A DNA stretch of 64,000 nt from Ferrovibrio sp. MS7. GTDB lineage: Bacteria; Pseudomonadota; Alphaproteobacteria; Ferrovibrionales; Ferrovibrionaceae. Both the position numbers and the translations under genes were made by a program. The notes beneath the pieces were generated by a model. The model was given only the letters and a program-made list of their open reading frames with translations, did not search any database and was not told where the DNA came from. Of this stretch, positions 1-2,257 are shown piece by piece (the stretch's first letter is position 1; every line of letters starts with the position of its first letter). The stretch is taken from positions 310,001 through 374,000 of the forward strand of contig NZ_JBBKBA010000002.1 in the NCBI RefSeq assembly GCF_038404985.1, given 5' to 3'.

Positions 1-133
1 CGCCGACCTGCTCGACGATATCGGCCAGGATCGAGAAACTGGCAATGACCTTCAGCTTTTCCTGGGTCTGGGCCTGGGCGTGAACCGGCGGGGCGGCGAA
101 CAGCAACATCAGGGCAAACAGCATGGCGCGCAT
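1..133 (-). CDS. znuA: Metal ABC transporter substrate-binding protein (ZnuA-like), N-terminal fragment
   Basis: Only the first 44 codons lie in the window; the gene runs off the left edge. The peptide starts MRAMLFALMLLFAAPPVHA, a signal sequence with a likely cleavage near VHA-QA, followed by KLKVIASFSILADIVEQVG. That opening strand is typical of TroA/ZnuA-type periplasmic metal-binding proteins. It lies on the same strand as znuC and znuB and behind a Zur-like operator, so zinc is the likely ligand. The metal-binding histidines are outside the window. The ATG at 133 is three bases from the inverted-repeat element and has no visible Shine-Dalgarno sequence; ATG 124 is an alternative. Confidence 0.7.
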   Translation of the reverse strand, partial: MRAMLFALMLLFAAPPVHAQAQTQEKLKVIASFSILADIVEQVG

Positions 134-136
134 GGT

Positions 137-403
137 TAGGGTCCAGACTCATTGGGGATAGGCCCGGGATTGGTCTGGGAAGGCCACCGGTTAGGAGCAA
201 ATCGCAGCGCGTAGTAGGACTACGGGCAAGATTTGCGACGACATCCGGCGGCCTTCCCAGACCAACCCTTGCGGGCGATGTGCTTTTCTTGCCTGGCGTT
301 GTCGAAAACCCTCACCGATGCCCCACATCGCTTTCGGCCTTTCTCCTAGCCAGGCAAGAAAATCACAACGTCACGGGCCTATCCCCAATGGGTCCGGACC
401 CTA
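137..403. repeat. Nested inverted-repeat element between znuB and znuA
   Basis: The outer arms 137-166 and 374-403 are inverted copies matching at 28 of 30 positions. Inside lie two independent palindromes. In the first, arms 171-190 and 245-264 match at 19 of 20, enclosing gcaaatc/gatttgc (197-203 and 230-236) and gtagt/actac (211-215 and 219-223). In the second, arms 284-297 and 349-362 match at 14 of 14, enclosing cgaaa/tttcg (303-307 and 332-336) and cgatg/catcg (316-320 and 326-330). As RNA it would form a three-way junction with long stems. The right outer arm contains the znuB stop codon and the left arm ends beside the znuA start. I saw no second copy here and no transposase. Its identity is unknown. 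Confidence 0.9.
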
Positions 404-1273
404 GGCCTCCAGATGCCGTGCCGGCAGCAGCCGCAGCAGGATGCCCTGCACGCGGCCGAAGAACAGCGACACGATGTAAAGGCTGCCGCAGGCCAGCACG
501 ATGGCCGGGCCGGACGGCAGGTTGGCATGGAAAGACAGCAGCAGGCCGGCATAGCCGGAAATCGCGGCGATCAAGGCCGCCACCGCCATCATGCCCGGCA
601 GCGAGCGTGCCCAGAAGCGCGCCGTCACCGCCGGCAGCATCATCAGGCCGACCGCCATCAGCGTACCGAGTGCCTGGAAGGCGGCGACCAGATTCACCAC
701 CACCAGGCCAAGGAAAATCAGATGATACAGCGTGCCGCCGCCGGTGCCGCGCAGGCTGCGCAGGAATTCGGGATCGAAGCCATCGAGCAGCAGCGGGCGG
801 TAGAGCGCCGCCAGCAATGCCAGGCTGATGCTGCTGATCACGCCGAGCAGCAGCAGGGCGGCTTCATCCACCGCCAGCACACTGCCGAACAGAATATGCA
901 TCACATCGACGCTGGAGCCGCGCATCGAGATCAGCGCCACACCAAGCGCCAGGGCGATCAGGTAGAAAGCCGCGACCGAAGCGTCTTCGCGCTGGTCGGT
1001 GGCGCGCGTGGCTGCACCCGCCGCCAGCACCACCACAAGGCCGGCGATCACGCCACCGATGGAAATCGCCGGCAGCGAGAAACCAGCGATCAGGAAGCCG
1101 GTGGCGGCACCGGGCAGGATGGCATGGCTCATTGCCTCGCCGAACAGGCTCATGCGCCGCAGCATCAAGATCACGCCGATCGGTGCCGAGCCCAGCGCCA
1201 GAGCGAAGCAGGCAACCAATGCCCGCTTCATGAAAGCGAATTCGATGAATGGCTGGATGAAGAACTCGAGCAT
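401..1273 (-). CDS. znuB: Zinc ABC transporter permease ZnuB
   Basis: A 290-residue polytopic membrane protein of the ABC-3 permease family, which forms the channel of high-affinity zinc or manganese importers. The diagnostic segment is LRRMSLFGEAMSHAILPG at about residues 38-55, followed by several hydrophobic helices and a central Gly/Ala-rich core (TLMAVGLMMLPAVTARFWA). Its start lies two bases after the znuC stop, so the two genes are cotranscribed and probably translationally coupled. Its stop codon is inside the right arm of the inverted-repeat element. Zinc rather than manganese is inferred from the upstream Zur-like box. Confidence 0.9.
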   Translation of the reverse strand: MLEFFIQPFIEFAFMKRALVACFALALGSAPIGVILMLRRMSLFGEAMSHAILPGAATGFLIAGFSLPAISIGGVIAGLVVVLAAGAATRATDQREDASVAAFYLIALALGVALISMRGSSVDVMHILFGSVLAVDEAALLLLGVISSISLALLAALYRPLLLDGFDPEFLRSLRGTGGGTLYHLIFLGLVVVNLVAAFQALGTLMAVGLMMLPAVTARFWARSLPGMMAVAALIAAISGYAGLLLSFHANLPSGPAIVLACGSLYIVSLFFGRVQGILLRLLPARHLEA

Positions 1274-1275
1274 GG

Positions 1276-2022
1276 TCAGGCCGCCGTATCGGCGGCGCAG
1301 ACCGCCGCATGCTCAGACCAGGATTCCGCCATGCGCCGGGCGCGCAACTGGTTTTCCGCCGTCAGCACTTCCGCCGTGCGACCCCAGGCAACCGGTTCGC
1401 GCGCCAGATACAGCGCTTCCGGGAAACGGCTCTGCACCAGATCGAAATCATGCAGTACCGCCACAACGGTACGCGCTTCACCATGCCAGCGATGCAGCAG
1501 CTCAACCAGATCGCTCACCGTGCGGGCATCCAGCGCGTTGAACGGCTCGTCCAGCAGGATCAGGCGGGCATCCTGCACCAGCACGCGGGCAAACAGCGCG
1601 CGTTGCAACTGGCCGCCAGACAGCGTTGCCAGCGGGCGCTTTTCGAAACCTTCGAGACCGACGGCGGCGAGTGCTTCGCGCGCCGCTGTAATGCCGTGCC
1701 GGCCAATGCCGCCGAAGGGACCAACATGCTGCCATTGCCCGAGCAGCACCAGTTCCAGCACCGAAATCGGGAAAGCGCGATCAAGACTTGCCTGCTGCGG
1801 CAGATAGGCGATATCGCGCTGCCGCAGTGGACCGCGTTCGATGCTGCCGCCGGCCAGCGGCAGCATGCCGGCCATGGCCTTCAGCAGCGTGCTCTTGCCG
1901 GCGCCATTCGGCCCGACCACGGCGGTGAGCGAGCCCGCTGTGAAGCAGCCGCTCAGGTGATGCACCGCCGGGTGGCGGTCATAGGCAACGGTAACATTGC
2001 GGCAGGAAATATCGGCGCTCAT
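1276..2022 (-). CDS. znuC: Zinc ABC transporter ATP-binding protein ZnuC
   Basis: A 248-residue ABC ATPase that energises the ZnuB permease at the inner face of the membrane. Visible motifs are Walker A GPNGAGKST, signature LSGGQ, Walker B LILLDEP and the H-loop LHD. The ATG at 2022 (MSADISCRN) is chosen. A TTG at 2037 in the same frame overlaps the stop of the upstream mini-protein (TTGA) and is a possible coupled start that would add five residues (MKPAA). The Cys and His residues near the C-terminus are not family hallmarks. The neighbours znuB and the znuA-like gene complete a standard importer. Confidence 0.92.
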   Translation of the reverse strand: MSADISCRNVTVAYDRHPAVHHLSGCFTAGSLTAVVGPNGAGKSTLLKAMAGMLPLAGGSIERGPLRQRDIAYLPQQASLDRAFPISVLELVLLGQWQHVGPFGGIGRHGITAAREALAAVGLEGFEKRPLATLSGGQLQRALFARVLVQDARLILLDEPFNALDARTVSDLVELLHRWHGEARTVVAVLHDFDLVQSRFPEALYLAREPVAWGRTAEVLTAENQLRARRMAESWSEHAAVCAADTAA

Positions 2023-2033
2023 GGCGGCAGGCT

Positions 2034-2219
2034 TCAATCGCTGAGCAAGGCCCAGGCGATCAGGCCCCAGAGGGCCGCCAGCAACGGCAGCAGCCAGAGC
2101 AGGCGCTGCACCAGGCCGGCCGCCAGGAAGCTGACCGCCATACCCGCGCCAGCCAAAGCCGGCGAAGGGCCATGGCTGCCATGGTGATGATGGCTATGAT
2201 CGTGGTGTTGATTGGACAT
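2034..2219 (-). CDS. Small His-rich membrane protein, first gene of the Zur-controlled zinc operon
   Basis: A 61-residue protein starting MSNQHHDHSHHHHGSHG, with eight histidines in the first 16 residues, then one or two hydrophobic helices (GMAVSFLAAGLVQRLLWLLPLLAALWGLIAWALL, quoted here only as residues about 26-59) and a short tail. I recognise no named family. The His cluster suggests zinc binding at the membrane surface, perhaps as a buffer or an accessory to the importer; this is inference. It ends immediately before znuC. There is no Shine-Dalgarno sequence, and the inferred promoter -10 lies about ten bases upstream of the ATG, so translation is probably leaderless. Confidence 0.7.
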   Translation of the reverse strand: MSNQHHDHSHHHHGSHGPSPALAGAGMAVSFLAAGLVQRLLWLLPLLAALWGLIAWALLSD

Positions 2220-2257
2220 GTTACTTTATAACATACGGGGAAAAACATCCCGGTCAA
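2218..2257 (-). promoter_or_regulatory. Zinc operon promoter with Zur-like operator
   Basis: On the minus strand, TTGACC (2252-2257) and TATGTT (2230-2235) are spaced 16 bases apart, a plausible sigma-70 promoter. The interval 2218-2234 reads ATGTTACTTTATAACAT, an inverted repeat with six-base arms ATGTTA/TAACAT that resembles the AT-rich Zur boxes of proteobacteria. It covers the -10 and reaches the start codon, so bound Zur would block transcription when zinc is plentiful. Zur as the ligand is inferred from the downstream genes. Confidence 0.65.

Follow-up and report, generated by a model that had tools for sequence, protein, structure and literature searches.

The window analysed here is a stretch of 64,000 nucleotides from the 4.58 Mb genome of Ferrovibrio sp. 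MS7 (G000:C2:310001-374000). Near its beginning the minus strand carries, in order, a palindrome (2218-2234), an open reading frame (ORF) of 61 codons, and genes for an ATPase, a permease and a zinc-type substrate-binding protein. The small ORF is a real gene that encodes a protein. The features of the locus are as follows.

2230-2257, minus strand (read 2257-2230): sigma-70-like promoter TTGACC-16-TATGTT, a consensus match only
2218-2234, palindrome, no strand: Zur-type operator of 17 bp, ATGTTACTTTATAACAT, with genome copies before zinc genes and a match to a Caulobacter box
2034-2219, minus strand: gene of the putative small membrane protein, 61 residues, ATG start, with a counterpart in each of the 8 further genus genomes in which aztA is present
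2172-2207, minus strand: N-terminal tail rich in His (8 of them), a feature that other family members may lack; probably cytosolic, without predicted structure
2043-2102, minus strand: predicted transmembrane stretch, residues 40-59 after Arg39, the last part of the helix that the model places at residues 20-59
1276-2022, minus strand: aztA-like ATPase of a zinc ABC importer, 248 residues, NF040873 216.5 bits (cut-off 220)
401-1273, minus strand: aztB-like permease, 290 residues, PF00950, NF040871 254.2 bits (cut-off 280)
1-133, minus strand: 5' part of an aztC-like substrate-binding protein gene, NF040870 274.4 bits (cut-off 350)

The aztA-like gene begins 11 nt past the small ORF, and the aztC-like gene runs off the window but is complete at L007:6195-7133 (312 residues). 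AztA, AztB and AztC are the best NCBIfam families of the three importer proteins, yet each score lies below the curated cut-off. The ATPase and permease score far lower against the E. coli-type families (ZnuC 87.9 bits and ZnuB 75.3 bits, against 216.5 and 254.2), and on these scores the importer genes are aztA-, aztB- and aztC-like, not the znuCB that the initial annotation had placed downstream. The binding protein carries its own His-rich loop, and this loop together with the operator suggests that zinc is the substrate. No match to AztD (NF038015) was found in the genome at E-values up to 1e-20; nor is AztD supported as a genome-wide substitute, since just 2 of 385 genomes drawn from the class match NF038015 and none does so above its cut-off.

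Between the aztC-like and aztB-like genes lies an element of about 270 bp (137-403) bounded by 33-nt terminal inverted repeats (91%), with two inner hairpins in a cloverleaf-like arrangement. Two more near-full copies of 93% identity are present in the genome (C2:27378-27647 and C1:2147440-2147705), and the element looks like a small non-autonomous mobile repeat that has inserted within the zinc operon.

The operator and its likely regulator

Very probably the palindrome serves as a Zur operator. Using ATGTTANNNTATAACAT, a pattern derived from the window site itself, we found three sites with at most one mismatch genome-wide, namely the one in this operon and those at C1:1844861 and C1:1983777; at two mismatches the count of strand matches is 12, while the reversed pattern, used as control, gives 4. 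It is the position of the other two best copies that argues for Zur, because they stand before genes for a ZigA-type GTPase (NF038288, 628.7 bits, cut-off 600) and a ZnuD-like TonB receptor (362.1 bits to its best family, below the cut-off of 950). The window operator also has 16 of 17 letters in common with the Zur box of the Caulobacter crescentus zrpW promoter, which has been tested by gel shift and reporter fusion according to the portion of that report available to us (PMC4176598). A box-matching sequence is present in all nine genus loci, and a Zur-like box with at most four mismatches lies upstream of the ORF in 92 of 155 loci, as compared with 1.1% of shuffles. The Zur-like box proposed at the outset is thus borne out at the level of sequence, and the outcome favours Zur over a different regulator. 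A Fur-family protein is encoded at L012:1360-1893, the best NCBIfam family of which is Zur (102 bits, below the cut-off of 167).

Three further observations concern these genes. The Zur-like regulator has a strongly His-rich stretch at its start. The ZnuD-like receptor gene is directly preceded by two tandem Zur-type boxes placed 1 bp apart (L009 5760-5794), one of which is a weaker match with two mismatches. Upstream of the operator a minus-strand block with the motif GGYTTTAGGGC (about 2265-2284) recurs in nine genus loci; in the window it sits between the zinc operon and a divergent penicillin-binding protein gene at 2369.

The promoter TTGACC-16-TATGTT is the sole sigma-70-like match between 2100 and 2400 (one found, 0.1 expected in shuffles). 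Its second hexamer lies mostly inside the operator, so that the transcript would have only a few leader bases, and the operator shares two bases with the ATG of the small ORF. An earlier start for this ORF is not possible because an in-frame TAA stands three codons upstream. The available part of the Caulobacter study describes Zur operators that overlap the -10 element at znuK, znuL and znuGHI (PMC4176598). The near-leaderless arrangement that had been suggested is thus the layout predicted from the sequence of this window, where the ATG and the greater part of the second hexamer overlap with the box, but not for the genus: operator and ATG overlap in G000 and the same-species genome G061 only, and are separated by 10-16 nt in the seven other congeners, which makes the layout a local one.

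Conservation of the small protein and its association with the permease

The small protein has 61 residues, with 8 His in an N-terminal tail followed by one hydrophobic segment, as described from the sequence at the outset. A single-sequence structure model has one helix, over residues 20-59, with a pLDDT of about 94 over residues 31-60 and of 56-64 in the His tail. The protein appears to belong to no named family: the window protein has no match in Pfam or NCBIfam at E-values up to 1, and 20 chosen members give only single matches there (E 0.05 or weaker) and none among PDB sequences at E-values up to 1. This agrees with its earlier designation as undescribed. In the literature covered we recognised no description of such a protein, although most subscription journals fall outside that coverage and this is no proof. 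The gene goes unmentioned in the accessible portions of the accounts of aztABCD, two zniCBA zinc importers and the Caulobacter regulon.

Within the genus the ATPase gene is present in nine of ten genomes, the same-species G061 included, and all nine have the box, then the small ORF, then aztA. The small ORF is under purifying selection in close pairs, with pN/pS values of 0.14 (G007/G003), 0.16 (G002/G005) and 0.27 (G004/G002) and higher values in the two other reading frames. More distant genus pairs have higher pN/pS, and in 2 of 28 pairs the value exceeds 1 (the window species with G008, 1.48, and with G005, 1.26). A plain search with the 61-residue sequence gives clear matches (E below 1e-6) in the genus only, together with a match in the family (47% identical, E 0.002) and many more near E 1.

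The reach of the gene beyond the genus was established with a profile seeded with eight genus proteins and iterated on 109 alphaproteobacterial loci. These comprise one locus in each of the 102 genomes, out of a class draw of 385, that have a related ATPase at E-values up to 1e-45, plus a second locus of G350 and the loci of four more genus genomes and two family genomes. In 95 of the 109 loci, which are also those it was trained on, the profile finds an ORF immediately before the ATPase gene and on its strand. Among 6149 ORFs from other parts of these loci, and among 475 residue shuffles, it has no match. Of the 14 loci missed, eight contain less convincing ORFs at that place, and weak candidates above the threshold (G278, G143, G131, G366, G009, G187, G234 and G397; E 0.0015-0.74) were counted as absent.

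A draw of 398 genomes from the phylum yielded 105 with a related ATPase at E-values up to 1e-40, 13 of them already counted. In held-out loci, on which the profile had not been trained, the ORF is present in 22 of 32 new alphaproteobacterial and 31 of 32 non-alphaproteobacterial cases, and all 53 profile matches among 4289 ORFs are the ORF just before the ATPase gene. The last 28 genomes of this draw, mostly those with the weakest ATPase matches, include 10 with the ORF (9 of 10 non-alphaproteobacterial, 1 of 18 alphaproteobacterial). Taking the best locus per genome, and leaving the second, weaker ATPase matches of G469, G665, G682 and G742 out of the counts, the phylum draw as a whole has the ORF in 40 of 42 non-alphaproteobacterial and 23 of 50 new alphaproteobacterial genomes. 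Eighteen named loci (16 of 39 plasmid records, Komagataeibacter europaeus and a Proteobacteria MAG) contain the ORF in nine cases, including Azospirillum, Methylobacterium, Skermanella, Bartonella and Neorhizobium. Altogether the ORF is present in 157 of the initial 191 loci, and in 167 when all 219 are taken. In three of the named records, from Skermanella, Thioclava and a member of the Paracoccaceae, the ORF is annotated as a hypothetical protein; the gene tables across the collection are incomplete. One scan of genome contigs with a degenerate pattern recovered four loci only, and a plasmid search with a 34-residue non-alphaproteobacterial member gave no matches. The conservation beside zinc genes that was asked of this reading frame is thus observed both in the genus and far beyond it.

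Conservation falls on a single helix, with an Arg that hardly ever varies and two Trp, and not on the His tail. Arg39, Trp51, Trp56 and Ala57 are invariant in 20 chosen members; a further set of 21, which overlaps the first, has only Met1 and Arg39 invariant, with Leu50, Trp51, Trp56 and Ala57 found in at least 90%. When the 157 members are anchored on the Arg, Trp occurs at position +12 in 92% and at +17 in 78%, and the 19 residues following the Arg have a mean hydropathy of 2.23, exceeding 1.6 in 154 members. Six of the 157 have no in-frame ATG before the Arg. When Lys and Arg residues are counted without the anchoring Arg, the part before the helix has more of them than the part after it in 91 members, the same number in 65 and fewer in one. 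These counts, and the Arg itself, favour a topology in which the N-terminus, and hence any His tail, is on the cytosolic side. A tail so placed could not catch periplasmic zinc, and in this respect the membrane zinc ligand that had been envisaged is not supported.

Presence of the ORF follows the type of permease. With identity cut points that were set after the data had been seen, the 219 loci divide into those in which the permease has 45% or more identity to the AztB of the window (ORF in 162 of 190), those at 36-45% (2 of 5), those below 36% (0 of 20) and those with no permease in the stretch (3 of 4). ATPase identity does not discriminate, since in the range 40-44% non-alphaproteobacterial loci have the ORF and alphaproteobacterial loci with another permease do not. 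This difference points to the permease as the partner of the small protein.

No copy was recognised in 28 of the 190 AztB-like loci, among them all eight named loci of AztABCD type (Paracoccus sp., Sinorhizobium, Shinella, Phyllobacterium, Mesorhizobium, Devosia, Qingshengfaniella and Klebsiella). The AztABCD-type importer thus works without the small protein, which is not indispensable. In a quick AztA tree, the deeper support of which is weak, these eight loci form one group (support 98) nested among carriers, which suggests that the AztABCD branch lost the ORF. A W-C motif at the C-terminus of AztA is found in 15 of 34 loci without the ORF and in 1 of 157 with it, and suggests that eight further non-carriers, which lie outside the tree, belong to the same branch. 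A search for the helix anywhere in 15 ORF-less loci gave a best E-value of 0.022.

Possible roles of the helix and of the histidine tail

From this evidence we consider, with a probability of about 0.7, that the small protein is a genuine single-pass membrane protein and a Zur-controlled accessory subunit of the AztAB-AztC-type zinc importer. It is probably an overlooked working part of one zinc importer family in many Proteobacteria. In the hypothetical arrangement that we favour, the protein would be made together with the importer, under Zur control, when zinc is scarce. Its helix, with the Arg on the presumed cytosolic side, about 19 hydrophobic residues that include Trp near +12 and +17, and hardly any residues beyond them, would pack against AztB in the membrane, and as a small accessory subunit it would stabilise or tune the AztA2B2 complex. 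Packing against AztB seems likeliest on two grounds: the gene goes with the AztB-type permease, and in most loci it touches or overlaps the ATPase gene. In some lineages the N-terminus bears a tail rich in His that probably binds zinc, and in others a comparable tail is found at the C-terminus of AztA.

The tail is variable. Only 28 of 157 members are His-rich (5 His in 15 residues), comprising 13 alphaproteobacteria of the class set, 13 alphaproteobacteria of the phylum draw and two members from outside the class. Among the eight genus species tabulated the number of His in the tail runs from 11 to 0, with 8 to 11 in four species and none in G002 and G005. The His-rich zinc ligand of the initial annotation is thus not what is conserved, given the 129 members that are not His-rich and these two congeners.

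One alternative is that the His tail is a cytosolic zinc sensor, located on either the small protein or the C-terminus of AztA, that restrains the importer under zinc-replete conditions (trans-inhibition). Many AztA proteins, for example those of L040, L144, L227 and L266, have a His-rich C-terminus. This is so in 12 of the 157 loci with the small protein, none of which has a His-rich tail on the small protein as well, and more often where the small protein is missing (13 of 34), in a comparison not corrected for the tree. The His counts of the two proteins are reciprocal in the eight genus species (rho -0.81, p 0.015, not tree-corrected). They are likewise reciprocal, with at least 5 His on one side and at most 2 on the other, in nine loci of family f71 and in its close kin Methylobacterium bullatum, although this family (the tenth locus of which, G665, is uncounted) and the others shown were picked after the data had been seen. 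Over all 157 members the counts are uncorrelated (rho -0.05). The mutual exclusion has a one-sided Fisher value of 0.086 when the tree is ignored, and when the AztA tail is simulated on a tree, zero overlap arises in 19% of runs (P = 0.19). Exchange of the tail between the two proteins, striking as it is in the chosen families, therefore failed the tree-based test and is a lead, not a result, and we regard the sensor reading as unlikely.

A second alternative is that the ORF is a leader cistron, the translation of which, ending near the aztA start, opens or couples translation of aztA, the peptide being incidental. The ORF is the first cistron directly below the operator, and in 99 of 157 loci it stops within 6 nt of, or past, the ATPase start (extrapolated as the place matching the first residue of the window's ATPase). 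The gap exceeds 30 nt in 22 of the 157 loci, however, individual residues are conserved throughout Proteobacteria and close pairs show purifying selection. An association that follows permease type is also not expected of a mere coupler. We judge this account quite improbable as a full explanation. Translational coupling could nonetheless be a second or the main function, and a leader-cistron role and a zinc-sensing tail may exist, possibly side by side.

It is more doubtful still that the protein is in essence a zinc-binding accessory factor, in which the tail collects or buffers zinc beside the importer and the helix is only an anchor; the 8 to 11 His of four genus species and the 28 His-rich members would suit such a role, but the helix is kept in the 129 members that are not His-rich and in the two congeners with His-free tails. 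That the frame arose by chance, or is conserved promoter DNA mistaken for a gene, can be dismissed in spite of its shortness and its overlap with a regulatory site, given the empty controls, the 53 of 53 held-out matches at one place, pN/pS values far below 1 in close pairs that rise in the two other frames, and the annotations as a hypothetical protein.

As an extension of the accessory-subunit reading we offer, tentatively and as less probable than not, that AztAB-type importers possess an overlooked ancestral subunit of about 30-60 residues that was lost in the AztABCD branch, and that the cytosolic His tail is a movable zinc-sensing or zinc-buffering module that shifts between this subunit and the C-terminus of AztA. 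Zinc importers have so far been studied as an ATPase, a permease and a binding protein. If there is such a subunit, then reconstitution, structural and mutant work on the AztAB-type branch may have used an incomplete complex, and the first cistron of such operons in several groups of Proteobacteria would need to be re-annotated. A small helix and its importer would also make a clean test system for the tuning of ABC importers by small membrane proteins.

Comparison with known systems

Small membrane proteins that modulate transporters are known, KdpF being one. The accessible portion of a published overview treats AcrZ, MgtS, MntS, MgtR/MgtU and LucB as an established kind of small membrane protein that tunes transporters, LucB being a small transmembrane protein of an ABC importer (PMC10710835). 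The likeness of the window protein to these lies in a length of tens of residues and a link to a transporter; it has 61 residues, one modelled helix and a link to one permease type (162 of 190 loci against 0 of 20). Unlike what we propose for the window protein, none of those named in that portion acts on a zinc ABC importer (PMC10710835).

The ATPase, permease and binding protein come nearest to AztA, AztB and AztC of the AztABCD system of Paracoccus denitrificans, which the available parts of two reports describe as a Zur-controlled operon (PMC5387054, PMC7731109), as we infer here. The window genome differs from it in having no AztD match at E-values up to 1e-20 and in its importer scores, which are below the curated cut-offs. 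The branch without the small ORF is represented by the eight named loci, two of which have an annotated AztD no more than 1.5 kb away; P. denitrificans itself is not among the eight. The Zur regulon of C. crescentus differs from the window in that no small first cistron is reported in the portion of that account available (PMC4176598).

The 'ZniCBA' of Cupriavidus was set aside as an unrelated efflux pump on the available text (PMC11647595). In Rhizobium leguminosarum, by contrast, ZniCBA is encoded by an operon with the order ATPase, permease, binding protein, in front of which, 153 bp from the ATPase gene, lies a Zur box, according to the part of the paper accessible to us (PMC12183173). Operon order and Zur box are as in the window, and the 153-bp gap is space enough for a small ORF; the word 'Hypothetical' does not occur in the main text (PMC12183173). 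The Neorhizobium locus carries the small ORF.
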